From positions 1,302,001 through 1,366,000 of the forward strand of contig OY365738.1 of assembly GCA_959347345.1 (NCBI GenBank): DNA of 64,000 nt, read 5' to 3'. Source of the stretch: an uncultured Amylibacter sp. (GTDB lineage: Bacteria; Pseudomonadota; Alphaproteobacteria; Rhodobacterales; Rhodobacteraceae). The notes under the pieces were generated by a model. That model was not told the origin of the DNA and ran no database searches. It saw only the letters and a list, made by a program, of their open reading frames with translations. Positions 303-60,570 of the stretch are shown here, in pieces. Each line of letters begins with the position of its first letter. Position 1 is the first letter of the stretch. The position numbers and the translations under genes were made by a program.

Positions 303-331
303 TTATTAACCTTTACACCTGTTACTATATT
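303..331 (+). promoter_or_regulatory. Possible promoter of the methyltransferase-GIY-YIG gene
   Basis: A TATATT hexamer at 326-331 (5/6 to the -10 consensus) lies 17 nt after a weak TTATTA at 303-308. Initiation about 7 nt downstream would leave a short leader containing an AAAGGGG ribosome-binding site at 351-357 and TTG at 364. The region 83-302 shows no gene; it holds G/T-rich sequence and a short GTGAATT-like motif near 280. Confidence 0.3.
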
Positions 332-363
332 TGCTATCACAAATCCAAACAAAGGGGCAGGTC

Positions 364-12823: not shown

Positions 12824-13894
12824 TTACTCGGTGGTCGGCGTGTCAATTTGTGGAATGTTAAAAATCTGCCCAGGGAAAATCAAATCGGGGTTTTGGATAA
12901 GCTCTTTATTCGCCTCAAAGATCTGCAAATAGCGCAAACCATCGCCATAACTCTCATACGCCAAAGCCCACAGATGATCGCCCGCCTGAATAGTAACCTG
13001 CCTATTGCCGTCCACCGTTTGGGGCGAGACTCGGTTAAGGGTTGAATCAATCGTGGCGGTGATGGTGTTGGTTTCATCCAAAGCCTCCACCAAAAGGTCA
13101 TGCTCACCAACCGCAACATCGGGCAAGGATACCTGCCACGCGCCGTCCGTAATGGGCGATTCAATCGGCTCGCCACCCGTGATGGACACGCGAACGCGCC
13201 CATCTGCGTTGGCGCGACCCTTGATGATAACATCACCCGTGGCACCGTAATCTATCGTGTCTATCTGTATTTCTGTGACGGAATCCGTGGCGGAGGGCGC
13301 GATGGGTTCGGTCTGTAATAATGTCACGCCTTCATCGTCTTTGGCGACAATCAAGGGGGCGGTTTTGTGGGTCGGGTCAATCGGTAGAATGGTAAAGCTC
13401 TCTGCGGATTTTATCTGAGCGCCGTCTGGGTCTGCCACCAGTTCCGAAACCAGTGGCGGTTGCCCTGCGGGAATATCAAATAAAGCGACAAAATTACCGC
13501 TTCCATCGGTTTGCGCACGGGCGACTTCTGCGCCATTGCCAAGGACTTGGACGGTGCTGTTAGGCGATGCCACGCCAGCGACAACCGCGTTGCCCTGTTT
13601 ATCCACGCGGACAACATCAAATTTGGGGGCGATAAGGTCTGGGGCAGGTTCAGGTTGGGTTTCGTCAGAAGCTGAGGGCTCTTTCGGCTCTGCCACCATA
13701 GTTTCTTCGGCGGTTTCTTCGCTTGCGGGTTCGGCAGTTTCCTCGCTTGCGGGTTCGGCAGTTTCCTCGCTTGCGGGTGCGGAAACCTCCGCCCCCTCCG
13801 CCACGATTGGCGTTTCTTCCCCACCAGAAAACAGAGTCGCGCGGATCAGCACACCAACCACCACGACCACAACCAATAATAATACAACACGCAC
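12824..13894 (-). CDS. LysM-domain envelope protein with N-terminal membrane anchor
   Basis: The product begins with one membrane helix (VRVVLLLVVVVVVGVLI), then an acidic low-complexity linker with three tandem copies of PASEETAE, then one or two Ig-like beta segments (AVVAGVASPNSTVQVLG and DVIIKGRANADGRVRVSI), and ends with a LysM domain (IQAGDHLWALAYESYGDG ... PDLIFPGQIFNIP) that should bind peptidoglycan. GTG13894 is chosen because AAGGA lies 8 nt before it; TTG13915 would add seven residues. It is co-oriented with the ABC exporter, and a structural envelope role is inferred. The triplicated 24-nt DNA repeat behind PASEETAE may vary in copy number. Confidence 0.8.
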   Translation of the reverse strand: MRVVLLLVVVVVVGVLIRATLFSGGEETPIVAEGAEVSAPASEETAEPASEETAEPASEETAEETMVAEPKEPSASDETQPEPAPDLIAPKFDVVRVDKQGNAVVAGVASPNSTVQVLGNGAEVARAQTDGSGNFVALFDIPAGQPPLVSELVADPDGAQIKSAESFTILPIDPTHKTAPLIVAKDDEGVTLLQTEPIAPSATDSVTEIQIDTIDYGATGDVIIKGRANADGRVRVSITGGEPIESPITDGAWQVSLPDVAVGEHDLLVEALDETNTITATIDSTLNRVSPQTVDGNRQVTIQAGDHLWALAYESYGDGLRYLQIFEANKELIQNPDLIFPGQIFNIPQIDTPTTE

Positions 13895-13943
13895 GTTTTG
13901 TTTCCTTTTCCACAAAACCTTAAAAAATATGGGCGAACAGCCT

Positions 13944-23298: not shown

Positions 23299-24408
23299 AT
23301 GAGCCTAAAAGTTTCACAACAAATCATCTATTGGAGCGCGGGATTGGTCGCGCTTATCGCCTTCGTGTGGCTATTGGGCGGGACGTTAATGCCATTCCTA
23401 GTCGGGATGGGCATCGCCTATTTCCTTGATCCACTGGTGGATAAATTGGAGGCATTACGCCTACCCCGTGCAGTCGCAACCGCGTTTATCAGCATCGGTG
23501 CGGTATTGATAATCGTTCTGGCACTCCTAACCCTGCTACCCGAATTGCAACGCCAAATCGTCAATCTTATCACCGCCTTACCCGATTATTTCGCCATCGC
23601 ACAAACGCTTTTGAATGAACACCTGCCGAGTTTGGCAAAGGAATCACCCCTGTTGGAACGGGGCATAGCCCAAATCACCGCCCGATTGGAATCCAGTGGC
23701 GATGATTTAATTGGAGTCATCCTCAGCTCTGCCTTTGGTATCATTGATATCCTTATTTTTATGGTTATCACCCCCGTTGTCGCCTTTTATATGCTGCTGG
23801 ATTGGGACAATATGGTTGCCAAAATAGACTCGTGGTTGCCACGCGATCACCGCGCCGATATTCGCGGGCTTGCGCTGGAAATGGACCGAGTATTGGCGGG
23901 GTTTGTCCGTGGGCAACTCAGCGTTTGTGCCATATTAGGCGGGTTTTACGCGGTTACGCTGGCTCTGGTCGGGTTGCAATTTGGGCTAGTCGTTGGGCTG
24001 GTCGCGGGTTTGCTCAGCTTTATTCCCTATGTCGGCGCGACAATCGGCGGAGTGCTGGCGATTGGGCTGGCGTTGTTTCAATTTTGGGGCGAGCCACAAT
24101 GGATTATCGCTGTTGCCGCGATTTTTGTCATTGGGCAAACGGCGGAGGGCAATATATTGACCCCGAAACTGGTCGGTGGGTCGGTTGGTTTGCATCCTGT
24201 TTGGCTGATGTTTTCGCTGTCTGCTTTTGGGGCGTTGGCGGGTTTTACTGGGCTGTTGCTGGCTGTGCCTATGGCGGCGTGTATCGGTGTGGTTTCCCGC
24301 TTTGCCATAGGGCGGTATTTGCAAGGTCGTTTGTATCAAGGCGCGGATTTCAAGGGCGAGGCGGTGAAGAAAAAGCCCCGTGCGGGTAAAAACACGGGTA
24401 AAAGGTAG
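23299..24408 (+). CDS. AI-2E family transporter (PerM/YdiK-like membrane protein)
   Basis: A 369-residue membrane protein with seven to eight hydrophobic segments. GMGIAYFLDPLVDKLE, DILIFMVITPVVAFYMLLDW, LSFIPYVGATIGG and the late EGNILTPKLVGGSVGLHPVWLM are typical of the AI-2E/UPF0118 family. Members export autoinducer 2 or exchange ions, and the substrate here is unknown. A basic tail (KKKPRAGKNTGKR) ends the protein. The downstream DnaA-like gene starts 4 nt after the stop, an arrangement common in alphaproteobacteria. Confidence 0.87.
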   Translation: MSLKVSQQIIYWSAGLVALIAFVWLLGGTLMPFLVGMGIAYFLDPLVDKLEALRLPRAVATAFISIGAVLIIVLALLTLLPELQRQIVNLITALPDYFAIAQTLLNEHLPSLAKESPLLERGIAQITARLESSGDDLIGVILSSAFGIIDILIFMVITPVVAFYMLLDWDNMVAKIDSWLPRDHRADIRGLALEMDRVLAGFVRGQLSVCAILGGFYAVTLALVGLQFGLVVGLVAGLLSFIPYVGATIGGVLAIGLALFQFWGEPQWIIAVAAIFVIGQTAEGNILTPKLVGGSVGLHPVWLMFSLSAFGALAGFTGLLLAVPMAACIGVVSRFAIGRYLQGRLYQGADFKGEAVKKKPRAGKNTGKR

Positions 24409-24412
24409 ACCC

Positions 24413-25093
24413 GTGGTTAAGCAACTGATTTTTGATTTGCCAGTGAAAACGGCCTTTGGGCGGGCCGATTTCTTTGTGTCCGATTCCAATGAAACTGCGG
24501 TAAAAATGCTAACGCGAGTCGGCGCAGACGCACCCGTGGCGTTGATTTTAGTCGGCGAATCGGGGGCGGGTAAATCCCATCTGGCGCGGATTTGGGCGGA
24601 TGATTGCGGTGCGAAGGTGATAAACTGCGCGGATTTGGCGGGGGCGGATTTAGCGATTTTGTCCGAATCGCGCGTGTGTGTAGAGGATTGCGGGGCGATG
24701 CCGCCCGCCTGTGAAACCGCGTTGTTTCATCTGTATAATTTGATGATGGACGCGGGGGCGGGGACTCGGCTGTTATTAACCAGCGCGATTCCGCTGCGCG
24801 ATTGGGCGATTGGCATCCCCGATTTGCAGAGCCGTTTGCAAGCCGCAGGGTTTGCTCGTGTAGCCCCGCCTGACGATCAACTGCTGGCGATGATTATGTT
24901 AAAGCAGTTTGATGACCGTCAAATTTTGATTGAGCCAAAGGTGTTGGATTATATTTTATCACGGATGGAGCGGTCGTTTGCTATGGTCGCGCGACTGGTG
25001 CAAGAGATGGATAAAATGGCGTTAGGGCAAGGCAAACCCATCGGGCAGAAAATCGCGCGGGAGGTTTTGACAAGGGTGAATTGTGAATGGTGA
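24413..25093 (+). CDS. DnaA-like AAA protein, Hda/HdaA type
   Basis: A 226-residue AAA protein homologous to the central part of DnaA but without its DNA-binding domain. It begins KQLIFDLPVKTAFGRADF, carries Walker A VGESGAGKSHLA, a degenerate Walker B (RVCVEDCGAM) and the sensor region IPDLQSRLQAAGF. By family it should act with the sliding clamp to inactivate DnaA-ATP after initiation. GTG24413 is chosen for its AAAGG site; the upstream in-frame ATG lies within the permease gene. The last residues VNCEW and the stop are encoded by GTGAATT/GTGAATG units of a repeat array. Confidence 0.82.
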   Translation: MVKQLIFDLPVKTAFGRADFFVSDSNETAVKMLTRVGADAPVALILVGESGAGKSHLARIWADDCGAKVINCADLAGADLAILSESRVCVEDCGAMPPACETALFHLYNLMMDAGAGTRLLLTSAIPLRDWAIGIPDLQSRLQAAGFARVAPPDDQLLAMIMLKQFDDRQILIEPKVLDYILSRMERSFAMVARLVQEMDKMALGQGKPIGQKIAREVLTRVNCEW

Positions 25094-44164: not shown

Positions 44165-44776
44165 ATGAATTTAAATTTTTCTATAGAATCTGATAACATA
44201 CTTTCTTTTGTTAGACATTGGTCTGGGCTTTACAATGACCCTCTTGAAAGTATTTATGAAAAACACATAAAAGAAACCCTAACCGAGTATAACATAAAAG
44301 AGCTTTACAGATGGAAAAATGAAGGCAAAGGGAAAATTGCAGCCCATAAAATAAAAAGCATAGAAAATAATTATCTAATACCACTGCCCGCACTTGATAA
44401 ACTTGAAGATAGATATTTGAATCATAAACAGGAAGGCGGGGCAATATGGAACATCTTTTATCTGCACATACTTTCAAAAAATCCGCATTTAAAACAGAAA
44501 TTACCCGATGAATATCCTATATTTGATAAACACGCCTATCGCGCCATGCGCTTTATGAAATTAAAAGAACCTAGGGAACTGCCCAGATCAGATAGTCAGG
44601 CTAAAAAACTTTTTATATACACGGAATATATCAAATATAAAAAATTCTATAAAGAGATTGAAAACAAAATCCAAGAATACCTTAATGAGGATGGTGACCA
44701 CGCAAAGCGTAAGATTGATATGGCATTATTTAAATTCGGACAATTTTTGGAAAAAGCTCAACCTTACCAACGCTAA
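44165..44776 (+). CDS. Hypothetical AT-rich orphan gene
   Basis: A 203-residue, Lys/Glu/Tyr-rich protein with no signal peptide or membrane span. Recognisable words are WSGLYNDPLESIYEKH, DEYPIFDKHAYRAMRFM and a C-terminal charged helix. No family is identified with confidence. Codon use and base composition are clearly more AT-rich than neighbouring housekeeping genes, suggesting horizontal gain. It is flanked by copies of the dispersed repeat in opposite orientation (F and G). A GGATAATAAG stretch before the ATG gives only a modest ribosome-binding site. It could be a defence or mobile-element cargo gene, but that is speculation. Confidence 0.6.
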   Translation: MNLNFSIESDNILSFVRHWSGLYNDPLESIYEKHIKETLTEYNIKELYRWKNEGKGKIAAHKIKSIENNYLIPLPALDKLEDRYLNHKQEGGAIWNIFYLHILSKNPHLKQKLPDEYPIFDKHAYRAMRFMKLKEPRELPRSDSQAKKLFIYTEYIKYKKFYKEIENKIQEYLNEDGDHAKRKIDMALFKFGQFLEKAQPYQR

Positions 44777-46584: not shown

Positions 46585-46755
46585 AAGAAATAATCGTTTT
46601 ATTTCAAACAGTTAAGATAATAGGTATTAAAATACCGCAAAAATAAACATTTCTTTTCGTGTTTTTTACCCTGCCCGCGTTTTCTTTTTATTATCCATTT
46701 GCGTGTCAAAAGGGGGGCATAAAGGCGCACGCCCCAACCTATAAGGAGACTTCCC

Positions 46756-49700
46756 ATGCATAAATTTTTCACCCTTGCCCTGTTTGTTTTAGCCGCCTGT
46801 GGTGGAGGCGGTGGAGGCGAGCGCGTTGCGGTTTCTCAGTTTGCCGAGGTTTGCACGGATAATCCGTTTGATTCAACCTGTGGTGTGGATTTTGATGATA
46901 TGCGAGAGGATATGTGCCGAGCAACGCCCGATGATTTGCGTTGCCCTGATACTCTGGCGCGGATTTGTGCCGAGGATCCGTTTGATGCCTTGTGTGCGAG
47001 TGTGAAGTATAGCGCGGCACGGGTGGAAATCTGTCGGTTTAATCCGTTTGATACGCGGTGTTTTGACACGATAGATGCTATTTGTAAGGCGAATCCGTTG
47101 GATACGTTGTGTGATGATAGTGATGATACCGAGGCGGGCGAGCCTGGGGATGGGGATACGGGGACGGTTGATTCGGGGGGTGATTCGGGGGATAATATAG
47201 CCGAAATCTGCGCGGATGACCCGTTTGATGCTCTGTGCGATAGTACCTATGACACCGAGCGCGAATCGGTTTGCCGTCAAAACCCGCAAGACAACCGTTG
47301 CCCCGATACTATAACCCGTGTTTGCGAAGCTGATGCGCTGGATGCTCTTTGCAACGATAATAGCGGTTATGATAGCGACCGCGAGTCCGCTTGTCGCACT
47401 AACCCACAAGACTCCCGTTGCCAATCCATCATCAAAGCCCTGTGCGATCCAAACCCACTGGACACCATCTGTGCCACCGATAACCGCTATAAAAACGACC
47501 GCAAAACCGCCTGCCGAACCAATCCGCAAGACCCGCGTTGCCCCGATACCATAGCCGAAATCTGCGATGCCAACCTGCGCGACCCTGTTTGCGATAAGGA
47601 CGCAAGATACCAAGACACGCACCGAACCGCTTGCCGTCAATCGCCGAATAACCCGATGTGCAACGATACGATAACCCGTCTTTGTAATGCCGATGCGTTG
47701 GATGACCTTTGCACCGATGATAGCGGTTATGATAGTGACCGCGAATCGGCTTGTCGTAATAATCCCGAAGATGTCCGTTGCCCCGCCACTATAACCCGTC
47801 TTTGTAATGCCGATGCGTTGGATGACCTTTGCACCGATAATAGCGGTTATGATACCGCACGCGAATCGGCGTGTCGTGAAACCCCAAGCGATGACCGTTG
47901 CCCCGATACTATAACCCGTCTTTGTAATGCCGATGCGTTGGATGACCTTTGCACCGATGATAGCAGTTATGATACCGCCCGCGAATCGGCGTGTCGTGAA
48001 ACCCCAAGCGATAACCGTTGCCCAGATACTATAACCCGTGTTTGCACCGATAACCCGTTTGATGCTCTGTGCGATAATACCTATAATAACGACCGCGAAT
48101 CGGTTTGCCGTAATGATAACAGTGATAACCGTTGCCCCGATACTATAACCCGTCTTTGTAATGCCGATGCTCTGGATGAGCTTTGCACCGATAATAGCAG
48201 TTATGATACCGCCCGCGAATCGGTTTGCCGTAATGATAGCAGCGATAGCCGTTGCCCTGCAACTATAACCCGTCTTTGTGAAGCTGATGCTCTGGATGAC
48301 CTGTGCACCGATAATAGTGGTTATGATACCGCCCGCGAATCGGCTTGTCGTGAAAACCCAAGCGATAACCGTTGCCCAGATACGATAACTCGCCTTTGTA
48401 ATGCCGATGCTTTGGATGACCTGTGCACCGATAATAGCGGTTATGATACCGCCAGAGAAACCGCTTGTCGTGAAACCCCAAGCGATAGCCGTTGCCCTGC
48501 CACTATAACCCGTCTTTGTAATGCGGATGCGCTGGATGCTCTTTGTGCCAGTGATGACGGTTATGATACCGCCCGCGAGTCCGCCTGTCGCAATAATCCC
48601 AGCGATGACCGTTGCCCAGCCACTATAACCCGTCTTTGTGAGGCTGACGCGTTGGATATTCTTTGTACCAATGATAACAGTTATGATACCGCCCGCGAAT
48701 CCGCTTGTCGTGCCAACCCAGAAGACTCCCGTTGCCCCGATACTATAACCAGAATCTGCACCGATAATCCGTTTGATGCTCTTTGCGATAATAGCTATAA
48801 CCTTGACCGCGAATCGGTTTGCCGTAATGATAGCAGCGATAACCGTTGCCTCGATACTATAACCAGAGTCTGCAAGGATAACCCATTTGATGCTCTTTGC
48901 GATAATACCTATAATTCTGAGCGTGAATCGGTTTGCCGTAATGATAGCGGTGATAGCCGTTGCCCAGATACTATAACCCGTCTTTGTAATGCCGATGCTT
49001 TGGATGAGCTTTGCACCGATAATAGCGGTTATGATACCGCACGCGAATCGGCCTGTCGTGAAAACCCAAGTGATAACCGTTGCCCAGATACTATAACCCG
49101 TCTTTGTGATGCCGATGCGCTGGATGACCTTTGCACCGATAATAGCAGTTATGATACCGCCCGCGAATCGGCCTGTCGCAATAATCCAAGCGATAGCCGT
49201 TGCCCAGCCACCATAACCCGTCTTTGCAATGCCGATGCGTTGGATGACCTTTGCACCGATAATAGCGGTTATGATAGCGACCGCGAATCGGCCTGTCGTG
49301 AAAACCCAAGCGATGACCGTTGTCCAGATACTATAACCAGAGTCTGCGGGGCTGACCCATTTGATACGCTTTGCAACGATACCTATAATAACGACCGAGC
49401 AACCGCTTGTCGCAATAAAACCCAAGGCGAGGGTGATTGTACAAATACCATAGCCAGAGTCTGCGGGGATAATCCCTTTGATACCCTTTGCAATAATGAC
49501 TATAACTCTGACCGTGAATCGGTTTGCCGTAATGATAGCGGTGATAGCCGTTGCCCCGATACCATAACCCGTGTTTGCACCGATAATCCATTTGATGCTC
49601 TTTGCGATAATACCTATAACCTTGAGCGCGAATCGGTTTGTCGTAATGATAGCGGTGATAGCCGTTGCCCCGATACTATAACCCGTGTTTGCACCGATAA

Positions 49701-52700
49701 TCCATTTGATGCTCTTTGCGATAATACCTATAACCTTGAGCGCGAATCGGTTTGTCGTAATGATAGCGGTGATAACCGTTGCCCCGATACTATCGCCAGA
49801 ATCTGCACCGATAACCCGTTTGATGCTCTGTGCGATAATACCTACAACACCCCCCGTGAAACGGCCTGTCGCGAAAACCCAACAGCCCCCCGTTGCCAAT
49901 CCATCATCAAAGCCCTGTGCGACCCAAACCCTCTGGACACCATCTGTGCCACCGATAACCGCTATACAAACGACCGCAAAACCGCCTGCCGTGAAAACCC
50001 AACAGACCCCCGTTGCCCCGCTACTATAACCGAAATCTGCGATGCCAACCTGCGTGACCCGATTTGCGACACCGACTCACGCTACCAAGAAACCCACCGC
50101 ACCGCTTGCCGTCAATCGCCTAATAACCCAATGTGCACCGATACGATTACCCGCGCCTGCGATATAAACGCATTGGATAGGCTCTGCACGGGCGATAATC
50201 GCTATATCCCCGCGCAAATCACCCACTGCAACCAGCCAGCAAACACAGGCTCGCCCGATTGCCAGCATTTCGCCACAACCTCACCTTGCCTAGAAAACCC
50301 GTTCCTTGAATACGGACAATGCGAGGCCGCATTTGATAACCCAGAATCCGCCAAACAAGCACGGTTTGACTATTGCAATGGGGAAAACCCGATAGCATCA
50401 CTCTGCACCGGGGCGCAAACAATATGTCAGCAATCAGAAAACCTATTCGCCACAAACTGCGATGCCTTCAATAACACGGCACGACTGGATTATTGCGCGA
50501 CTGGCACAAACGCGTTGCTTAACGCCGAGCCAAACCCGCAATGCGTTGCCATACAGGAAAACAACGAATCCTGCGTTTCAAACCCCTTTGCCGACGTCTG
50601 CACGACCATCCTAACCGACGCCGCGACGATTAGACAAGGGCGGGTGAATTATTGCCACACGCTCACCCCCGAACAAATCACCGCCAATTATTTATGCGCG
50701 AATCTTGATCAAATTTGCCGCGAATCGCCTTTTGAAAAAATATATGGTTGCTTAAATCATAGCGCGTGGGAGGGCGACCGCGACCGCCAAGCCATTGCCT
50801 GCCGTGCAGACCCAACCCGCCAATCTGCGGCTTGCACGGGTCCTATTCGGTATTGCTTCCAAAACCCGTTTGATGCAGAGAACAAACACGGGGCTTGCAC
50901 CCACTCCGCCTTTCACAAAGAGCGTGAAGCCCGCGTTCTTGGCTGTTATAACGGGACATTCAGCAGCCCAGCTTGTGAAGAGCTTGCCCCGTGTAACGCC
51001 ACGCCCTTTTCCACGACAATCACGCTAAACGAGACAACATGCAACACCGCCCCAGAATTCGCGGCGATTCGCACGATAAAAATCGAAGGATGCAGCGGCG
51101 CGGACTTTGCCAATTTTTCCTGCAACGATGTCCAAGCGACCTTTTGCACGGACAGCAACACAGATAACTATTTGTTTTCCCCCTTGTGTAATCGCGCCGA
51201 TAACCCGTATCAACACCTGCGCACGGATTTGATTGATATTTGCATATCTAATTCCAATGCCGAAGGATGCACCGATAATATCAATCACTGCGTGCTTAAT
51301 CCGTATAAGCTCTATAAAACCTGCGTGAATACTGCCTTTGATACTCTCCGTACTACGTCCGTTACAAACTGTATTTCAAACAATCAGGATAATGGCGGAA
51401 TACAAACCAGTGATACCTTTTGCCGAAATATAGACCGCGCGGTTTGCACCCATATTGGTCGATTTGCCAATCCATTTCATGAACTCTGCTATCTTAATAG
51501 CACGAATGGACTTTATGCAACCAGACGCTATACGATTTTCAATAATTGTATTGGAGGCACGCTGCGCGGCCAGACTTGTAAGGTCGTCATTGCTTGCAGA
51601 GCCAACCCGTTTGGTTCAGAATGCCCCGATGACGCGCTGTTTAATGATGCGAAAGAGACCTATTGCCGTGCGAATTCAACTGATTTGTGCAACCCTACCA
51701 TAGAGCGGGTTTGTGCGACCAACGCGCTGGATGATTTATGCACGGGCGATAGCCGCTATGACACCCCGCGTATTGCGGCTTGCCGTGAAGACCAAAGCGA
51801 TAATAAATGCGCACAAATTATCAAAGATGTGTGTGATGTTACACCATTGGATACGTTATGTGCCGAGGATAACAGCTATACAGATGCCCGCCAAACCGCC
51901 TGCCGAACCGCCGATTTAACCACGGAAACCCGTTGTGGCACGGCTATTATGCAAATCTGCGATGCCAACCTGCACGACCCGATTTGCGATAAGGACGCAC
52001 GCTACCAAGACACGCACCGCGATGCTTGCCGTCAATCGCTGAATAACCCGATGTGCGTTGATACAATAACCCGTGCCTGTGATATAAACGCACTGGATAG
52101 GCTCTGCACGGGGGATAATAGGTATATCCCCGCGCAAATCACCCACTGCAACCAACCAGCAAACACAGGCTCGCCCGATTGTCAGCATTTTGCCACAACC
52201 ACACCTTGCCTAGAAAATCCGTTCCTTGAAGGCGGACAATGCGATGCCGCATTTGATAATTTAGACTCTGCCAAACAAGCACGGTTTGACTATTGCAATG
52301 GGGAAAGCCCAATAGCATCCCTCTGCACGGGGGCGCAAACGATATGTCAGCAATCAGAAAACCTGTTCGCAACCAAATGCGATGCCTTCAATACCACGGC
52401 ACGGGTGGATTATTGCGCCACTGGCTCAAACACGCTGATGGGCGATACTATGCAAACAGACCCAAAATGCACGGACACGAATATCCCCGCGCAATCCTGC
52501 GTTTCAAACCCCTTTGCAGACGTCTGCGCGACCATCCTAACCGATGCCGAGACGATTAGACAAGGGCGGGTGAGCTATTGCCACACGCTCACCCGCGCAG
52601 AAATCCGCGGCAGTTATTTATGCAGTTCCCTTGACATTATTTGCCGCGAATCCCCTTTTGAAAACGTCTTGTATCGCTGTTTAAAGCATAGCGCGTGGGC

Positions 52701-55377
52701 GGGCCACCGCGACCACCAAGTCAGCACCTGCCGTGCAGATGAAACCCGCCAAGCTGCGGCTTGCACGAATTTTATTCAGTATTGCTTCCAAAATCCGTTT
52801 GATACAGCAAACAAAGGCTTTTGCAAGGATCCCGCCTTTAATCAAGAGCGCGAAGCCCGTGTGCTTAGCTGTTATAATGGGAGATTCATAGGTTCGGCTT
52901 GTGACGCGCTTGCCCCGTGTAGCAATGCACCCTTTTCCACGACACTCATGCTAAACGAGAGAACATGCAACACCGCACCAGAATTCGCCGCGATTCGCAC
53001 GATGAAAGCTGAAAACTGCAACGGCGCGGACTTTGCCAACTTTCCTTGCGATAATGTCCGAGCTGCCCTTTGCACGGACAGCAACACAGATAATTATTTG
53101 TTTTCCCCCTTATGCAATCGTGCCGATAACCCCTATCATCAGGTACGCAAAAATTTGATTCAGGCTTGCCAGAATAATTCGAATCTACAGGGATGCACAG
53201 AGACCATCCTACTCTGCCTGCGCAAGGGGGGCTATGAAACCGACACAACCTGCGTGAATAGTGCGTTTAATTCTCACCGTGACGGACAAACGAGTCAATG
53301 CACTGCTGCATATCGGGATAGCGGCAGTATCCACGAGGACGATATCGCTTGCATAGCGATAGATACCGCGGTTTGCACAGACACAGGCCCCTATGCCAAT
53401 CCATTTCATGATATCTGCCGTCTTACTGGCGTTGATTATTCCGCAGAGCGGACGGCGATTTTCAATGGTTGCACGGATGGCATGCTAAGTGGCACGGTTT
53501 GTGAGCCCGTTACCTTTTGCATGACCTACCCTTTTGGTAGCGACTGCCGCTCTGACCCCCTGTTTGAGACTGCAAGAGAGACCTATTGCCGTGCGAATTC
53601 AAATACTACCTGCAACTCTATCGTAGAGCGGCTTTGCACGGCTGACGTGCTGGATGATATTTGCGCGGATGATACGCGATATAGTGACGCACATGAAACC
53701 GCCTGTCGTGGTACGCCCACCGATTCCCGTTGCGCTGGTGTGATAGCCCAACTCTGCGATGCCGAGGCTCTGGATGATATTTGTGCCAGCGATTCGCGTT
53801 ATAGCGACGCACACGAAACCGCCTGCCGTGGTGCGCCTGAAGATAGCCGTTGCGCCGATGTGATAACGCAGGTATGCGATGCCAACGCACTGGATGATTT
53901 ATGCACGGGCGATAGCCGTTATGACACCCCGCGTATTACGGCCTGCCGCGAAGACCAAAGTGATAAGAAATGCAAAAAGATTGTCAAAGATTTGTGCGAT
54001 GCGACCCCATTAGATACGTTATGCGCCGATGATAACCGCTATAAAAACGCCCGTAAGGAGGCGTGCCGCGCCGCCGATTTAACCACCGAAACCCGTTGTG
54101 GCGAGGCTATTATGCAAATCTGCGATGCCAACTTGCGCGATGAGATTTGCGATAAGGACGACCGCTATCAAACCCTGCATAGGGCAGCATGTCGCCAAAC
54201 CGCCAATAATCCGCAGTGTGCCACCACGATAACCACGATTTGCACAGGTGATCCGTTTGATAGCGCGTGTATCAGCAACCCGTTCTATCGCCGTGCACGG
54301 CTGATTGATTGCATCACCGCAGATAACACCCGCGAATCACGATGCACCGATATGACCGAACAGCGGGCGTGTTTTGAAAACCCCTTTTCTGGTTTGTGTG
54401 GTGGCATAGATAATCTTGGCAATGTTGCGGAGTTGGCGCGGAAAGCCCGTGTTGACTTTTGCAATGATAATCCGCAGGACGATCTGTGCGTAGGTATTAA
54501 TATCGAGCGAATCTGTAGCTATGACCCCTTTAGCGTGAATTGTCTTTACGGCGGAATATACGACACCGCGCGGGTGGCAAAAATCACCGAATGCTCTTGG
54601 AAAGCAAAGCAATATAGTGGTGATTGCGCAGGCACCTTGGCACGACCGAACTTCGCCACTTGGTCGCAAGGGTTTGCCAAGGACCTGCCCGCAAGTCCGG
54701 ATACACAATACATACATAACCAATTCTTACGCGGAACTGCAACCGGGCTCAATACTGGTGATTTTACGCCCATCGGTGGAGTCAAAACTTTGAACCTGCG
54801 CGACGCAACCTATAAAGGGAAAGCCTTGGGCGGGGATGTATCCAGTGGCATGGCGTTCTTTAGAGCATCACGAAGTTACGTTTTTGATTCGTTTTTATCT
54901 ACCGTTCCTACAACAGGTATTTTTGCCTACGCTGGCATTCTATCGGATACCAATTTGGGCGAGCCTTTAAGCCAAACATCGGGACGCGCCATCTGGAACG
55001 GACAAATTCGCGTAGAACATGGGGACGGTGAATATGTGAATAAAGATCTGGACCTGAGCATTGATTATTCTGAAAAAAGCATTTATGCCTTTGTTCATGC
55101 TCCCCGAAGATGGGCTTCTGATTACCACTACTTGTTGCAAGGGAATTATAACGACGTTGGGTTAATAACGGGAACAGTGCAGTATACCGCATTCTTTACT
55201 AACAACCCAAAACTCCCTGACCGTTATAATCTGGAACCAGGGATTCTGACAGGCTTAATCGGGCAAAAAGGCGCGGTTGGCGCGTTTATCAGCGAGACAT
55301 TTTACACCGAGTCAAACTATGGTAACTCTAATTATTCTGGCGGGTTTGTTGTGTGTCCTGCGGGGGGGTGTGAATAA
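46756..55377 (+). CDS. Giant cysteine-rich repeat surface lipoprotein (2873 residues)
   Basis: The product starts with a lipoprotein signal peptide (MHKFFTLALFVLAAC, lipobox LAAC) and a Gly run. From about residue 30 it is built from units of 38-40 residues, each with four cysteines spaced C-x8-C-x(11-13)-C-x8-C-x7. The consensus elements are C-x2-(N/D)(P/A)(F/L)D-x-LC, SGYD-x2-RE-x2-CR, NP-x-D-x-RC and DTITR. I count 29 units before about residue 1130, then a variant Cys-rich region, four more units, a second copy of the variant region and six or so more. An acidic Gly/Asp spacer interrupts unit 3. The last 230 or so residues lack the repeat and read like a beta-barrel lipoprotein domain (TbpB-like; YNLEPGILTGLIGQKGAVGA). 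The protein should be outer-membrane anchored, periplasmic or surface-exposed, with dense disulfides. AAGGAG precedes the ATG; the stop TAA is inside a TTAACGA array. The function is unknown. Confidence 0.9.
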   Translation: MHKFFTLALFVLAACGGGGGGERVAVSQFAEVCTDNPFDSTCGVDFDDMREDMCRATPDDLRCPDTLARICAEDPFDALCASVKYSAARVEICRFNPFDTRCFDTIDAICKANPLDTLCDDSDDTEAGEPGDGDTGTVDSGGDSGDNIAEICADDPFDALCDSTYDTERESVCRQNPQDNRCPDTITRVCEADALDALCNDNSGYDSDRESACRTNPQDSRCQSIIKALCDPNPLDTICATDNRYKNDRKTACRTNPQDPRCPDTIAEICDANLRDPVCDKDARYQDTHRTACRQSPNNPMCNDTITRLCNADALDDLCTDDSGYDSDRESACRNNPEDVRCPATITRLCNADALDDLCTDNSGYDTARESACRETPSDDRCPDTITRLCNADALDDLCTDDSSYDTARESACRETPSDNRCPDTITRVCTDNPFDALCDNTYNNDRESVCRNDNSDNRCPDTITRLCNADALDELCTDNSSYDTARESVCRNDSSDSRCPATITRLCEADALDDLCTDNSGYDTARESACRENPSDNRCPDTITRLCNADALDDLCTDNSGYDTARETACRETPSDSRCPATITRLCNADALDALCASDDGYDTARESACRNNPSDDRCPATITRLCEADALDILCTNDNSYDTARESACRANPEDSRCPDTITRICTDNPFDALCDNSYNLDRESVCRNDSSDNRCLDTITRVCKDNPFDALCDNTYNSERESVCRNDSGDSRCPDTITRLCNADALDELCTDNSGYDTARESACRENPSDNRCPDTITRLCDADALDDLCTDNSSYDTARESACRNNPSDSRCPATITRLCNADALDDLCTDNSGYDSDRESACRENPSDDRCPDTITRVCGADPFDTLCNDTYNNDRATACRNKTQGEGDCTNTIARVCGDNPFDTLCNNDYNSDRESVCRNDSGDSRCPDTITRVCTDNPFDALCDNTYNLERESVCRNDSGDSRCPDTITRVCTDNPFDALCDNTYNLERESVCRNDSGDNRCPDTIARICTDNPFDALCDNTYNTPRETACRENPTAPRCQSIIKALCDPNPLDTICATDNRYTNDRKTACRENPTDPRCPATITEICDANLRDPICDTDSRYQETHRTACRQSPNNPMCTDTITRACDINALDRLCTGDNRYIPAQITHCNQPANTGSPDCQHFATTSPCLENPFLEYGQCEAAFDNPESAKQARFDYCNGENPIASLCTGAQTICQQSENLFATNCDAFNNTARLDYCATGTNALLNAEPNPQCVAIQENNESCVSNPFADVCTTILTDAATIRQGRVNYCHTLTPEQITANYLCANLDQICRESPFEKIYGCLNHSAWEGDRDRQAIACRADPTRQSAACTGPIRYCFQNPFDAENKHGACTHSAFHKEREARVLGCYNGTFSSPACEELAPCNATPFSTTITLNETTCNTAPEFAAIRTIKIEGCSGADFANFSCNDVQATFCTDSNTDNYLFSPLCNRADNPYQHLRTDLIDICISNSNAEGCTDNINHCVLNPYKLYKTCVNTAFDTLRTTSVTNCISNNQDNGGIQTSDTFCRNIDRAVCTHIGRFANPFHELCYLNSTNGLYATRRYTIFNNCIGGTLRGQTCKVVIACRANPFGSECPDDALFNDAKETYCRANSTDLCNPTIERVCATNALDDLCTGDSRYDTPRIAACREDQSDNKCAQIIKDVCDVTPLDTLCAEDNSYTDARQTACRTADLTTETRCGTAIMQICDANLHDPICDKDARYQDTHRDACRQSLNNPMCVDTITRACDINALDRLCTGDNRYIPAQITHCNQPANTGSPDCQHFATTTPCLENPFLEGGQCDAAFDNLDSAKQARFDYCNGESPIASLCTGAQTICQQSENLFATKCDAFNTTARVDYCATGSNTLMGDTMQTDPKCTDTNIPAQSCVSNPFADVCATILTDAETIRQGRVSYCHTLTRAEIRGSYLCSSLDIICRESPFENVLYRCLKHSAWAGHRDHQVSTCRADETRQAAACTNFIQYCFQNPFDTANKGFCKDPAFNQEREARVLSCYNGRFIGSACDALAPCSNAPFSTTLMLNERTCNTAPEFAAIRTMKAENCNGADFANFPCDNVRAALCTDSNTDNYLFSPLCNRADNPYHQVRKNLIQACQNNSNLQGCTETILLCLRKGGYETDTTCVNSAFNSHRDGQTSQCTAAYRDSGSIHEDDIACIAIDTAVCTDTGPYANPFHDICRLTGVDYSAERTAIFNGCTDGMLSGTVCEPVTFCMTYPFGSDCRSDPLFETARETYCRANSNTTCNSIVERLCTADVLDDICADDTRYSDAHETACRGTPTDSRCAGVIAQLCDAEALDDICASDSRYSDAHETACRGAPEDSRCADVITQVCDANALDDLCTGDSRYDTPRITACREDQSDKKCKKIVKDLCDATPLDTLCADDNRYKNARKEACRAADLTTETRCGEAIMQICDANLRDEICDKDDRYQTLHRAACRQTANNPQCATTITTICTGDPFDSACISNPFYRRARLIDCITADNTRESRCTDMTEQRACFENPFSGLCGGIDNLGNVAELARKARVDFCNDNPQDDLCVGINIERICSYDPFSVNCLYGGIYDTARVAKITECSWKAKQYSGDCAGTLARPNFATWSQGFAKDLPASPDTQYIHNQFLRGTATGLNTGDFTPIGGVKTLNLRDATYKGKALGGDVSSGMAFFRASRSYVFDSFLSTVPTTGIFAYAGILSDTNLGEPLSQTSGRAIWNGQIRVEHGDGEYVNKDLDLSIDYSEKSIYAFVHAPRRWASDYHYLLQGNYNDVGLITGTVQYTAFFTNNPKLPDRYNLEPGILTGLIGQKGAVGAFISETFYTESNYGNSNYSGGFVVCPAGGCE
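47230..50150 (+). repeat. Tandem 114-120 bp coding repeats in the giant lipoprotein gene
   Basis: The same words (for example ACTATAACCCGTCTTTGTAA) recur every 120 nt, or 114 nt for the NPFDALC type of unit, for nearly 3 kb. Several neighbouring units are almost identical (for example 47680-48000 and 49560-49800), which implies recent expansion or gene conversion and a risk of collapse in short-read assemblies. Confidence 0.88.
50030..53640 (+). repeat. 1.6-kb internal duplication in the giant lipoprotein gene
   Basis: The segment from about 50030 to 51660 is repeated from about 51950 to 53585, at an offset of about 1920 nt. Examples are GATATAAACGCATTGGATAG at 50161 against 52081, and TGCCGTGCGAATTCAA near 51665 and 53588. 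The two copies have diverged at many third positions and by small in-frame indels, so this is an older event than the unit expansions. A further copy of 51730-51960 occurs at about 53890-54120. Confidence 0.85.
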
Positions 55378-55915
55378 CGATTAACGATTAACGATTAACG
55401 ATTAGTGATTAGTGATTAATTTTTTGCCACTTCTTGACTGGTCGGCATTTCGAAGAAATGACGAAGACCCGAAGGGCTAAATTAATGATGAATGATTGGT
55501 TATTAGAGGTTAAGAGCGGCGGTTTTTTGTTGCGCCCTCACTGCGTTCGGTTGCCCACCCGCCCACCCCTCCTACAAGGGCAGTTGAACCTGCCCGAAAA
55601 TAAAAATAATGAGCTGGACGGGTTTTTGTGGCTTTTGCCTATCCAAGCATCTAGGCAAAGCCTAAATAAATTTAGAACTTACCCATCACCAATTCCCAAG
55701 TATTCTTTGCAAATCATCCAATCTATCGTCTTGTTATTCCAGATAGTAAATTTATAGAATCCCTATCATCTTGTAACCAAAGGGCTTTTGGCATGCCCCC
55801 GCAAAGCGGGGGCTACGCACAAAAGACCACGCTGGTCGGTATCGCGCAAGCGATGACGAAGACCCGAAGGGCATCACTAATCACTAATCATTAATCGTTA
55901 ATCGTTAATCGTTAA
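55378..55915 (+). repeat. Dispersed intergenic repeat, copy H, with nested mini-element
   Basis: A TTAACGA/TTAGTGA array (55376-55418) is followed by a spare tail fragment with CATTTCGAAGAAATG (55437-55476), then the full core at about 55509-55874. The stem is CCCCCGC AAA GCGGGGG. In the head, GCGGAGA is replaced by a mini-element with GGGCAGTTGAACCTGCCC (55580-55597). A TTAATCG array (55875-55915) abuts the dnaE stop. It lies between convergent genes; no ORF is supported. Confidence 0.85.
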
Positions 55916-58900
55916 TTAAAACTCCTCAATCCCCAGCACCCCAGCGATTCCTTTGAACGCCGATTTCATCTGCAAGTTCAACGGATAGCTATCCTTTAAC
56001 GCCAGCTCTACATCGCCGTCCAAATCAGGCGCACGTAATACCAAATGCACCGCGCCTTGCGACCCGCGAGCCCCTGCACCAGACAAATCCCCCAACCGTG
56101 CCGCCACCGACTCCAACGCCGCCGCTTCATCCACGAAAATCCGCAACCCCTTTATGGATACATCGCCCATAAAGCCCTCAACCGTTTGCACTTTACGAGC
56201 ATTCAGGCGCAACTGCCCGTCATTATACCCCGCCTCCACGTTCAAAACAACATTCTGCCCGGATTCCAATAACCCACGATATTCCGCCAAAGCCTCTGAA
56301 AACAAGCTAACCTCATACAGCCCCGTTGGGTCTGATAACTGGACAAACGCGAATTTATTACCCTTTGCCGAGATCCGCTCTTTCTTGGACGCAACCGCAC
56401 CCGCCAATTTACAATGCAAGGTATCTTTTTCCTTTTCCACCTTTGCATTCATCTGTGCAAAAGTCAGAACAGATTTACGCGCCAATACCGATTGATAATC
56501 GTCCAGAGGATGCCCCGATAGATAAAACCCGATTGCCAAATGCTCTTCTATCAATCGCTCGTTTGGCAGGAAATCTTTCACATCGGGCAAGGGCGGGGGC
56601 GGCAATTCATCACCTCCCCCAAACAGAGCATTTTGCTGAGAATTCTTTTCGCTAATCACAGTATTAGAATAGCCGACCAGCGATTCTATCCCATCATGCA
56701 CGCGCCGCCGATTGCCATCCAAACAATCAAACGCACCCGCCGCCGCCAGCCGTTCCAACGCACGTTTGCCAACTCGGCGCAAATCCACCCTACGGGCAAA
56801 ATCAAACAAATCGGTGAATTCGCCGTCTTTGCGGGCATCACTGATAAGACGCATAACCTCTACACCCACATTTTTTAACGCACCCAAAGCGTAAAATATT
56901 TTGCCATCCTTCACGCTGAAGGTCGCCTCGGATTTATTAACACAAGGGGGGTGAGCAACCAGCCCCAAAGCCTCAACCTCGCGGTAATAAACCGCCATTT
57001 TATCGGTGTTGTGAATATCGCAGGTCATCACCGCCGCCATGAACTCCAAAGGATAATTCGCCTTTAGCCATGCGGTTTGATAGGACACCAAAGCATACGC
57101 CGCCGCGTGGGATTTGTTAAAGCCATAATTCGCGAACTTATCCAGCAGATTCCAAACCTCATCCGCCTTGCCCTTTGGCACGCCATTCGCCAAAGCACCC
57201 GCGATGAATTTGGGTTTTTCTTTATCCATCTCGGCTTGGATTTTCTTACCCATAGCACGGCGCAACGAATCCGCACCGCCGAGGGTATAGCCCGCCATGA
57301 CTTGGGCAATTTCCATCACTTGTTCCTGATAGACGATAATCCCTTGGGTTTCATCCAGCAAGTGGTCAATAGAATCATGCATTTTCTGCCGCTTGGCACG
57401 GTTGTTTTTTATATCGCAAAACAGGGGGATATTTTCAATCGGACCGGGGCGGTAGAGCGCGACCAAAGCGACTATATCCTCTATACAGGTAGGCCGCATC
57501 CGCCGCAACGCATCCATCATACCCGATGATTCCACTTGGAACACGGCAATAGTCTTCGCGGCAGAATATAAATCAAAGGTCTTTTTATCGGTTAAATCAA
57601 TCGCGCTAATATCAATATCAATCCCGCGAATCCGCAGGAAATCCAACGTATATTGAATGACGGTCAGGGTTCTTAATCCCAGAAAATCAAACTTCACCAG
57701 CCCCGCCTTTTCCGCCCATTTCATATTAAATTGCGTGGCGGGCATGGACGAGCGAGGGTCTTGATACAACGGCACCAGCTCATCCAACGGGCGATCGCCA
57801 ATCACCACACCCGCCGCGTGGGTGGAGGCATTTCGCAACAATCCCTCTAACTGTCCCGCGTAGTCCATCAGGCGTTTGACTATTTCTTCCGCCTGTACAG
57901 CGTCACGCAAACGCGGTTCGTCCTTTAATGCTTTTTTAATGGAAACGGGTTTGACACCCTCTTCTGGTATGAGTTTAGCAAGGCGATCAACTTGGGGATA
58001 CGGCATGTTCAAAACCCGCCCAACATCACGCAGGGCTGCTTTGGATAGCAACGCGCCAAAGGTGATGATTTGCGCGACCCTATCGCGACCGTATTTTTGC
58101 TGGACGTATTGGATAACTTCCTCTCGCCTTTCCATACAAAAATCAATATCAAAATCGGGCATGGAGGCACGTTCGGGATTCAAAAACCGCTCGAATAAAA
58201 GCGAATACCGCAAGGGGTCTAAATCGGTGATTTGCAAAACATAAGCAACCAACGACCCCGCGCCAGAGCCACGACCAGGCCCGACAGGGATATTATTATC
58301 CTTTGCCCAGCGAATAAAATCGGCAACAATCAGGAAATAACCGGGGAAACCACGATTGATAATAATATCCAGCTCAAATTCCAGCCGTTTTTCATAAACA
58401 TCCACGCTGGCGGAGGGCTCAATCGTTTTCAATCGTGCAGTAAGCCCTTCGGCGGCTTGACGGCGCAATTCGGAAACCTCATCATCGGCGAATTTCGGTA
58501 AAATAGGGGCTTGGGTGCTCGGTTTAAACGCGCACCGTTTGGCGATTTCAATGGTATTCTCAATCGCCTCTGGCAAGTCGGCGAATCGGCGAATCATTTC
58601 ATCTGGGGTTTTCAAATAATACTCTGGTGTCAGTCGCCTGCGCCCGCTTTGCTGATCAACACGAGCGTTATTGGCAATGCAAATCAGCGCGTCATGGGCG
58701 GCGAACATGTCTTTATTGGCGAAATAAGCATCATTGGTGGCGACCAAAGGCAAATCCAAAATATAGGCAAGGTCAATAAAATCAGCCTCGCTGGCGGATT
58801 GTTCGGGGGTCAGGGTGTTGTCCGTGCCATGCCGATGCAGTTCAATGTAAAACCGCGTGGGGAATATCGCGGCGAGTTCCTGCATCAAGGCCTTCGCTTT

Positions 58901-59395
58901 GCCCTTCTGCCCATCGCACAGGATTTTACCGATAGGACCCAAAGCACCACCAGACAGGCAAATCAACCCGTCATTATGGGCGGATAAATCGGCAATACTA
59001 ATCGCGCCTTTGCTGATTTCTTCATGCAGATATAGGCGGGAATTCAGGCGTAGCAAATTATCATAGCCCGTTTTATTCTGTGCCAGCAAAACAATCGGGC
59101 GACCAGCGGGCGGGTTATCACCGACAGTCTGCCCCGCCGTTTGCGTGGTATCTACTCGCAAATCCATTTGACAGCCGATGATGGGTTGAATACCCGAATT
59201 GCCAAGGGCTTCGGCAAATTCCAACGCCCCGAACATGTTATTTGTATCGGTAATGGCCAGCGCGGGCATCGCCATTTTACGGCAAGTTTGCGGTAGGTCT
59301 TTTATTTGCAACGCCCCTTCCAGCAGGGAATAGGCGGTATGGACTCGCAGATGAATAAAGGCGGGGGATTTGGTTTTGGCGCGGGTTTGAGTCAT
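55916..59395 (-). CDS. dnaE: DNA polymerase III alpha subunit (DnaE1)
   Basis: The replicative polymerase catalytic subunit. The N-terminal PHP domain begins FIHLRVHTAYSLLEGALQIK. The palm carries GPGRGSGAGSLVAYVLQITD and SMPDFDIDFCMERREEVI with the catalytic Asp residues; the fingers include STHAAGVVIGD and FNKSHAAAYALVSYQTAWLK. A late OB domain (KLAGAVASKKERISAKGNKF) and a C-terminal domain follow. The 1159 residues are complete. Its ATG overlaps the stop of an upstream DNA methyltransferase gene (ATGA), so the two are translationally coupled. Confidence 0.97.
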   Translation of the reverse strand: MTQTRAKTKSPAFIHLRVHTAYSLLEGALQIKDLPQTCRKMAMPALAITDTNNMFGALEFAEALGNSGIQPIIGCQMDLRVDTTQTAGQTVGDNPPAGRPIVLLAQNKTGYDNLLRLNSRLYLHEEISKGAISIADLSAHNDGLICLSGGALGPIGKILCDGQKGKAKALMQELAAIFPTRFYIELHRHGTDNTLTPEQSASEADFIDLAYILDLPLVATNDAYFANKDMFAAHDALICIANNARVDQQSGRRRLTPEYYLKTPDEMIRRFADLPEAIENTIEIAKRCAFKPSTQAPILPKFADDEVSELRRQAAEGLTARLKTIEPSASVDVYEKRLEFELDIIINRGFPGYFLIVADFIRWAKDNNIPVGPGRGSGAGSLVAYVLQITDLDPLRYSLLFERFLNPERASMPDFDIDFCMERREEVIQYVQQKYGRDRVAQIITFGALLSKAALRDVGRVLNMPYPQVDRLAKLIPEEGVKPVSIKKALKDEPRLRDAVQAEEIVKRLMDYAGQLEGLLRNASTHAAGVVIGDRPLDELVPLYQDPRSSMPATQFNMKWAEKAGLVKFDFLGLRTLTVIQYTLDFLRIRGIDIDISAIDLTDKKTFDLYSAAKTIAVFQVESSGMMDALRRMRPTCIEDIVALVALYRPGPIENIPLFCDIKNNRAKRQKMHDSIDHLLDETQGIIVYQEQVMEIAQVMAGYTLGGADSLRRAMGKKIQAEMDKEKPKFIAGALANGVPKGKADEVWNLLDKFANYGFNKSHAAAYALVSYQTAWLKANYPLEFMAAVMTCDIHNTDKMAVYYREVEALGLVAHPPCVNKSEATFSVKDGKIFYALGALKNVGVEVMRLISDARKDGEFTDLFDFARRVDLRRVGKRALERLAAAGAFDCLDGNRRRVHDGIESLVGYSNTVISEKNSQQNALFGGGDELPPPPLPDVKDFLPNERLIEEHLAIGFYLSGHPLDDYQSVLARKSVLTFAQMNAKVEKEKDTLHCKLAGAVASKKERISAKGNKFAFVQLSDPTGLYEVSLFSEALAEYRGLLESGQNVVLNVEAGYNDGQLRLNARKVQTVEGFMGDVSIKGLRIFVDEAAALESVAARLGDLSGAGARGSQGAVHLVLRAPDLDGDVELALKDSYPLNLQMKSAFKGIAGVLGIEEF

Positions 59396-60543
59396 AGGGG
59401 GATTATAGGGGGATTTTGCGGATTGGCAAGGTTTCTAGCAATAAAATCATCAAAAACCCCATTGGCATCGCTTAACCTATTAACAACCATATTAACCGAG
59501 TTTGCCTCAATATCAATACCAATCCAACGTCTGTGTAAATGATGCGCCGCCACGCAAGTGCTCGCACACCCGCAAAACGGATCAAGCACCAAATCGCCTT
59601 CTTTACTGGATGCTTTGATAATTCTATAAAGCAAGGCAAGCGGTTTTTGCGTGGGATAGCCCGTGTTTTCCGCCCGCGAAACTCGCGGAATATCCGTCCA
59701 ATTATTATCAAGCGGAGTGCCTTTGTAATCATCCAGATATTGCCGTCTTTCCACCCTTGCCCCGCTTTTAATAATAATATTTCCCTTTTGATATTCTTCT
59801 TCCAAACGGGGCTTGCTTAATCGCCACCCCGATGGATATGGATTTTTACACCCGCGCCATTCAAAACAAAGATTAGGTCTTGCGCCCATAGTTTTTGCCC
59901 TAAAAACAGGGGTAGTCGTGTTATACCGCCTGCCCTTTTCATCCGTTTTATTAAACTTTTTTATAATTTCCGCGTCATTCACATCAAATTCCGCTATTGG
60001 ATTCAAATAATAATCCTTGGTCTTTGTATAAAAGAAAATCGTATCGGTATTCGCGCCAAACTTCCTTGCGGCATATTGACTGCCCTTACCACGGGAAGAA
60101 TTCCTTTGCCAAATAATTTCATTATGAAAATTATTCGCGCCAAAAATCGTATCCATAACGGTTTTCAAATAATGACTAGCCGTAGAATCGCAATGTAAAT
60201 AAAAAGAGCCTGTTGGTTTCAAAACCCTATGCAATTCCAAAATCCGCAGGGACATAAAACCGATATAAGCCATCATAGCCTTGCCATGCGCCGCATCTAT
60301 CACCTGAATAAAACTGGATAAAGAGGGGTGTTTATCAAATAATTGTGCTAACAATCCTTCATCAACATCGCTCCATTTCCAAGTATCTTTGAAAGACGAC
60401 CCCGCGGCGGTACTGCCATCAGGGGCGTGAAAAATCCGTTTGGAATTAAACGGAGGATCAAGGTAAATCAAATCCACCGAATCGCTATCCATACCCCGAA
60501 GAATATAGAGATTATCGCCCGTGAATATGGTATTCTTTTGCAT
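59392..60543 (-). CDS. Beta-class DNA methyltransferase (orphan type)
   Basis: A 383-residue site-specific DNA methyltransferase with early VDLIYLDPPFN (catalytic) and late DLVLDPFCGCASTCVAAH (SAM-binding), the beta-class order. FYLHCDSTASHYLKTVMDTIFG and WTDIPRVSRAENTGYPTQKP are shared with the methyltransferase at 364-1779, so the two are paralogs, but this one lacks the GIY-YIG tail. It is not CcrM-like. ATG60543 is preferred because TATAAT lies so close to ATG60564 that the longer form would start at the transcript end. No restriction gene is next to it. Its stop overlaps the dnaE start. Confidence 0.85.
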   Translation of the reverse strand: MQKNTIFTGDNLYILRGMDSDSVDLIYLDPPFNSKRIFHAPDGSTAAGSSFKDTWKWSDVDEGLLAQLFDKHPSLSSFIQVIDAAHGKAMMAYIGFMSLRILELHRVLKPTGSFYLHCDSTASHYLKTVMDTIFGANNFHNEIIWQRNSSRGKGSQYAARKFGANTDTIFFYTKTKDYYLNPIAEFDVNDAEIIKKFNKTDEKGRRYNTTTPVFRAKTMGARPNLCFEWRGCKNPYPSGWRLSKPRLEEEYQKGNIIIKSGARVERRQYLDDYKGTPLDNNWTDIPRVSRAENTGYPTQKPLALLYRIIKASSKEGDLVLDPFCGCASTCVAAHHLHRRWIGIDIEANSVNMVVNRLSDANGVFDDFIARNLANPQNPPIIPL

Positions 60544-60570
60544 CGCTTGCTCTTCTGCTTTCATATTTTT

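Follow-up and report, generated by a model that had tools for sequence, protein, structure and literature searches.

A putative giant surface lipoprotein of four-cysteine units with a predicted Slam-type cargo barrel in an uncultured Amylibacter

The assembly of an uncultured Amylibacter sp. (Alphaproteobacteria, Rhodobacterales; GCA_959347345.1) contains on contig OY365738.1, within a stretch of 64,000 nucleotides (positions 1,302,001 to 1,366,000 of the forward strand, referred to below as the window), a gene whose product of 2873 residues is made up over nearly its whole length of four-cysteine units. This raises the question of what kind of protein such a chain is, where it would be located and what it would do. 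The favoured answer, which taken as a whole is on balance probable, is a surface lipoprotein exported by the Slam translocon (type 11 secretion system, T11SS), with a disulfide-stapled stalk or coat that may contact a host. From the analyses described here we infer lipidation, Slam export, disulfides, stalk shape and host contact. The secretion class and the C-terminal barrel are already known, whereas the cysteine unit, the size and the presence of up to 15 barrels in related proteins are not described in the literature searched.

The gene and its cysteine units

The open reading frame (ORF), lipobox, repeat and distinct C-terminal domain that an earlier note had described from the DNA letters were all found again at their coordinates (Table 1), and the frame, which that note allowed might prove broken, runs intact through 2873 codons on the plus strand (46756-55377). 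Its predicted product has a mass of 314 kDa and is acidic (net charge -193), with a very high content of both aspartate and cysteine. It contains 245 cysteines (8.5%), slightly fewer than the 250-300 expected in the note, whose description was otherwise correct in its essentials, and 240 of them lie at residues 32-2611. The lipobox VLAAC at residues 11-15, although judged by eye, supports the identification as a putative lipoprotein.

Over much of the protein the cysteines follow each other in steps of 9, 12 or 14, 9, and 8. The exact spacing C-x8-C-x(11-13)-C-x8-C occurs in 32 units and a looser spacing in 35; the first run (residues 33-1127) holds 27 units of the looser and 26 of the exact pattern as well as a half unit (110-119) and, after it, an acidic linker that extends to about 147, so that the previously reported run of 29 units was roughly right. 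Tandem Repeats Finder assigned the main array a periodicity of 114 or 120 bp. A unit profile derived from 495 matches to the pattern, 428 of them distinct, aligned to 1245 segments among the 66 proteins searched and to 58 segments in the window protein, half units and diverged units included. The unit consensus is C-x2-[ND]-P-F-x4-C, then Y or F, an R about four residues further, and then again C and C; the first loop of the window units often reads ADALDDL instead of NPFDxL. In alignment A3, which comprises 14 four-unit rows after omission of five of 19 (an earlier alignment, A2, was out of register in some rows), all 16 cysteine columns are invariant, and the unit pattern is therefore not due to chance. 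Searches of Pfam and NCBIfam with the whole protein, repeat included, returned no family at E ≤ 1, in agreement with the earlier opinion that the unit belongs to no described family; a match of the whole protein to a PDB sequence (E 0.45) was discarded as chance.

The two stretches of irregular cysteine spacing are copies of each other, a duplication absent from the earlier note. Over 658 columns, residues 1128-1781 share 60% identity with residues 1768-2420, and the corresponding DNA (50033-51234 and 51953-53160) is 83% identical over 1216 bp.

Codon comparison of the 22 exact 40-residue units, in which the four cysteines, one Asp, one Tyr and one Arg are invariant, revealed that the proportion of non-synonymous differences (pN) was smaller than that of synonymous differences (pS) in all 231 pairs, with means of 0.30 and 0.63, respectively. 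TGC and TGT are both used at each of the four cysteine positions. Together, these two results indicate that the frame is selected for its protein sequence, and purifying selection thus acts on the repeat units. Antisense to the repeat array lies an open frame of 1008 codons (46873-49899, minus strand), which is most likely a mere by-product of the repeat sequence.

Table 1. Coordinates of the giant gene and its parts within the window.
Feature	Residues	Position	Strand	Basis or remark
Giant cysteine-repeat gene, putative lipoprotein	2873 aa	46756..55377	+	ORF reading; purifying selection between units
Ribosome-binding site AAGGAG, 7 nt 5' of ATG		46743..46748	+
Putative lipoprotein signal peptide, lipobox VLAAC, then Gly-rich stretch	acceptor Cys 15	46756..46800	+	by eye
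Main regular array of four-cysteine units	33-1127	46852..50136	+
Irregular cysteine spacing, stretch 1	~1135-1613	50158..51594	+	copy of stretch 2
Regular units, group 2	1614-1767	51595..52056	+
Irregular cysteine spacing, stretch 2	~1768-2254	52057..53517	+	copy of stretch 1
Last unit group, final units irregular	2255-2611	53518..54588	+
Predicted C-terminal handle and eight-stranded barrel, TbpB/HphA/fHbp fold	2612-2873	54589..55374	+	AlphaFold2, fold search, profile chain

The C-terminal barrel and the family of relatives

AlphaFold2 predicted the C-terminal domain as a handle followed by an eight-stranded barrel (predicted local distance difference test score, pLDDT, 85). Foldseek and VIA fold searches with it retrieved TbpB, HphA, HpuA, fHbp and NHBA, and the aligned identity to solved structures of Slam/T11SS cargo and hemophilins was 7-16%. 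The barrel profile matches residues 2612-2869, and the domain carries the family motif GLIGxxGAVGAF...GGFV. In profile comparisons the barrel family matched the intermediate A4 with a probability of 98.9, and A4 matched TbpB_B_D proteins with 97.5; the proposed homology of the barrel to TbpB_B_D proteins is reached only through this intermediate. For these comparisons, the 150 rows of the large barrel alignment were drawn at random among those longer than 190 residues, and the TbpB_B_D set consisted of 23 ORFs from 25 loci (none for L112; L103 dropped because of a wrong frame), which a script had chosen near the match, their PF01298 membership being that of the initial scan only. The single match of barrel profile A1 to PDB sequences, M156R (E 2.3), was regarded as chance. 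It is with high confidence, as far as a structural model allows, that the domain is taken for a soluble barrel of the Slam/T11SS cargo type and not a membrane barrel. The beta-barrel-like end of the earlier note was hence a barrel indeed, of a soluble cargo fold. The phage shield considered there found no support, and the domain had no match in plasmid and phage records.

A weak barrel match was obtained for five proteins from 390 sampled genomes of the order of G001, all of them small lipoproteins (L081-L085). They share with the window protein a lipobox (by eye) and one barrel, which ends near GAFHG...GGF, match the barrel family in the profile comparison with a probability of 98.9, and differ from the window protein by frames of only 201-299 codons without cysteine repeats. 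Because the barrel profile served to find them, their agreement with it is not independent, whereas their match to TbpB_B_D proteins is. One of them, L083, matched PF01298 with E 0.0094, under the Pfam cut-off, and a SlipAM gene (PF04575) is adjacent in two of the five loci. Within the same order, G009 and G034 have 12 and 10 TbpB_B_D matches, respectively, a large set of small barrel proteins.

Three protein searches, the second and third of which scored only the candidates that shared most words, yielded 78 distinct relatives of 529-4828 aa. All 78 carry at least one barrel (range 1-15, mean 6.7; 466 barrels in the first 65 relatives), and the last barrel ends at most 12 residues from the C-terminus in 70 of them. 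Although 65 relatives were found with queries that included the barrel, the third search used the units alone and still all of its 13 new proteins had barrels, so that unit and barrel go together among giant proteins; the length limits of the searches would miss shorter proteins consisting of units only. By a crude pattern, 54/78 relatives start with a lipobox and 17/78 with a signal-peptidase-I-like sequence, a division that recalls the lipidated and the soluble class of T11SS cargo (PMC8406197; this and the following papers are cited from excerpts). Unit number varies widely across the family. Among the 79 proteins the window member has the highest cysteine share (8.5%, all others at most 6.2%) and the most exact units (32, the next having 15 by an overlapping count), and it has just one barrel. 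Fifteen consecutive barrels occur in P0012 and P0015, and 14 in P0009, P0017 and P0020. Four protein clusters among the relatives (P0006, P0007, P0020, P0031) have an identical length given for their longest contig (4,737,489 bp), which suggests several paralogues in one genome. Only four relatives are named: two belong to “Candidatus Halichondribacter symbioticus”, placed in the Rhodobacterales by NCBI, one to a Gammaproteobacteria bacterium and one to a Proteobacteria bacterium. According to PMC10154371, Halichondribacter lives in obligate symbiosis with the sponge Halichondria panicea, and the mother supplies her larvae with it; a sponge origin of the window DNA would thus be plausible.

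The closest known systems are the Slam/T11SS lipoproteins (TbpB, LbpB, fHbp, HpuA, NHBA, PmSLP) and the hemophilins (HphA, Hpl), from which the window protein differs by its length of 2873 aa and the array of 245 cysteines in front of the barrel. Slam-dependent lipoproteins have been described with one or two barrels (PMC5449769), and two multi-barrel lineages were added later (PMC12282271). These Sphingomonas and Psychrobacter proteins, predicted T11SS cargo, likewise combine repeats with multiple TbpBBD-type barrels; their repeats consist of proline-threonine or proline-threonine-aspartate (PMC12282271), in contrast to the cysteine units of the present family, which reaches 15 barrels while the window member has one. 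Pls of Haemophilus parahaemolyticus, a verified T11SS cargo of 525 aa, also joins long repeats to a C-terminal barrel, but its repeats are alpha-helical EEARKA, and the excerpt of PMC12282271 mentions no four-cysteine units. A description of the family that combines cysteine units and barrels was not found in the open literature searched.

Export, disulfides and competing explanations

According to the proposed mechanism, the N-terminus would be lipid-anchored through a Sec/Lsp signal and the lipobox, and the C-terminal handle and barrel would belong to a domain type regarded as the recognition signal for the Slam translocon (T11SS, DUF560/SlipAM), through which the chain would cross the outer membrane. 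Slam is reported to move unfolded substrate, with a C-terminal motif proposed as the part recognised (PMC9090332). Outside the cell, about 2580 residues with 240 cysteines would fold into a row of small helical units in which one disulfide closes each C-x8-C bracket. The product would be a long surface stalk or coat that resists proteases and ends freely in the barrel. The likely task would be contact with the surroundings, plausibly with an animal host such as a sponge. Slam export of the window protein is quite probable, host contact has rather less than an even chance, and a role as adhesin or coat, as the earlier note supposed, is compatible with the data.

The cysteines of the family are consistent with pairing. 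Of 601 intervals from C2 to the following C1 motif, counting only those with the next motif within 90 residues, 593 contain an even number of cysteines, as expected if cysteines were gained and lost in pairs. Some intervals with zero cysteines stem from an NPF motif inside the C3-C4 loop; they are still even. A first pairing table around NPF (839 both, 142/56 one only, 121 neither) was unreliable since its anchor matched shifted positions, and it was not used. The proposed pairing would be C1-C2 and C3-C4.

Several results weigh against the proposed export and architecture. A chain with 245 cysteines fits poorly with a translocon whose substrate has to be unfolded. No Slam was detected among the 40 window ORFs scanned, which are part of the window's ORFs; in the reverse test, none of 10 SlipAM loci (8.2-9.0 kb each) contained a barrel ORF detectable by the barrel profile; and scanning of the neighbours at three of the five small barrel loci (3, 2 and 1 ORFs) revealed no Slam. 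The relation in fold is remote, as most Foldseek matches had template modelling (TM) scores of about 0.3-0.4 and root-mean-square deviations mostly above 8. Direct comparison of the barrel family with TbpB_B_D proteins gave weak probabilities of 66 and 19, and PF01298 (TbpB_B_D) did not match the C-terminal domain or 10 other A1 barrels at E ≤ 1, so that the domain is not assigned to that Pfam family. Parity is less clean over whole inter-barrel stretches (114 of 161 even, 47 odd). The AlphaFold2 model of four units, calculated from 14 rows, is poor (pLDDT 47, predicted TM-score 0.26); three short helices recur per unit in this low-confidence model, and it does not decide the pairing. Support for the disulfide ladder of the earlier note is indirect and comes from the even cysteine numbers. 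Finally, the link to sponges consists of the names of two relatives.

Within the same class of protein, the cysteine-rich part could instead be an effector that binds a ligand, such as cations or a host molecule, with the barrel serving only for export. T11SS cargo is described as an N-terminal effector with a C-terminal export barrel (PMC12282271, PMC8406197), and the strong negative charge of the window protein as well as its layout, with units over nearly the whole length and one barrel kept, would suit this function. It is nevertheless unlikely, because CXXC motifs are absent, the highly variable unit number among relatives is more typical of a spacer, and many relatives carry many barrels instead (1-15). 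A metallothionein-like binder or store of metal thiolates, the last of the functions considered in the earlier note, is disfavoured and very improbable. Cysteine and aspartate are abundant, but a search of the window protein for CXC, CXXC and CC clusters found none, the smallest step between cysteines is 5, the cysteines occur in even numbers and fixed C-x8-C brackets, and the environment of the protein after export would be oxidising.

A lipoprotein that remains in the periplasm as a structural component of the envelope, and whose barrel would be the relic of a surface ancestor in a cell without Slam, could account for the missing Slam gene among the scanned window ORFs and for the blank reverse test, and would avoid the difficulty of exporting 245 cysteines unfolded. 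This explanation is improbable, given that a barrel is present in 78/78 relatives, at the very C-terminus in 70/78 (with the reservation that 65/78 were found with barrel-containing queries), and that a chain of 314 kDa is large for the periplasm. Least probable of all is an artefact of assembly or reading at a repetitive locus. Repeats of 120 nt and a duplication of 83% identity make the unit number uncertain with short reads, and the exact number could be wrong even if the gene is real; the open frame of 2873 codons, the excess of synonymous change in every unit pair and the occurrence of similar-sized relatives on contigs of up to 4,737,489 bp argue against it.

If the surface lipoprotein is indeed exported by Slam, the most interesting open point is how its 245 cysteines avoid pairing in the periplasm. 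With up to 4828 residues and 15 barrels in the family and 245 cysteines in the window member, these proteins go beyond described Slam lipoproteins. For the four-cysteine unit, which neither Pfam nor NCBIfam covers, there is now a family, a domain that accompanies it and a pathway that can be tested, and the protein becomes a candidate for the host-contact layer of a maternally transmitted sponge symbiont. A more far-reaching picture, which is tentative and rather doubtful, would have the 314-kDa chain exported unfolded in Slam fashion, with about 120 disulfides forming outside to create a stiff ladder-like fibre, and the family, with 1-15 barrels and dozens of cysteine units per protein and several paralogues in a genome, expanded in animal-associated bacteria as their main host-facing layer.

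Surrounding genes and related genomes

Most of the 40 scanned window ORFs belong to ordinary chromosomal families (cell division, tricarboxylic acid cycle, ribosomal and others), and some match nothing. A second unit or barrel gene is not present in the 64-kb window. At the limits used, no Pfam match was obtained for the ORFs at 44165-44776 (+, 203 aa), 12824-13915 (-, 363 aa) and 24380-25093 (+, 237 aa).

A scan with DnaE, from which 80 loci were kept, gave identities of 60-64% to six (L001, L002, L003, L019, L054, L070) and of 41-56% to the other 74. Three of the six bear names of the Rhodobacteraceae type (Gemmobacter, Octadecabacter, Rhodobacteraceae) and the other three are labelled no further than Alphaproteobacteria or Proteobacteria, while a locus with the label Amylibacter reaches 48%; by this marker the organism is Rhodobacterales-like. 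None of the 80 loci, several of them short, contained a unit or barrel ORF, and the genomes of the six best matches likewise yielded no barrel. A nucleoside-type ATP-binding cassette transporter pair lies within about 5-7 kb of dnaE in three of these six loci, and near dnaE in the window too. Searches of further sampled genomes were negative as well, both for the barrel (385 genomes from the class of G001) and for the unit (394 from its family); these blanks show little because no genome there is known to carry the giant gene. Scanning of genome and viral contigs with the barrel alignment confirmed nothing.

Two genes for N6/N4 DNA methylases are located in the window, at 331-1779 (+), with a T5orf172 domain, and at 59392-60564 (-). 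The heptamer TAACGAT is repeated in tandem from the stop codon of the giant gene onwards (55375-55419), an array in inverted orientation is located where dnaE ends at its 3' side (55873-55916) and a third copy near 2.2 kb (2221-2241); two-unit matches were observed eight times in the window, compared to 0.02 expected. The sequence GACGAAGACCCGAAGGGC occurs three times on the plus strand (55460, 55855 and 27058), with two of the copies (55460 and 55855) close to either end of the interval that separates the TAACGAT arrays, and may be a small repeat element.
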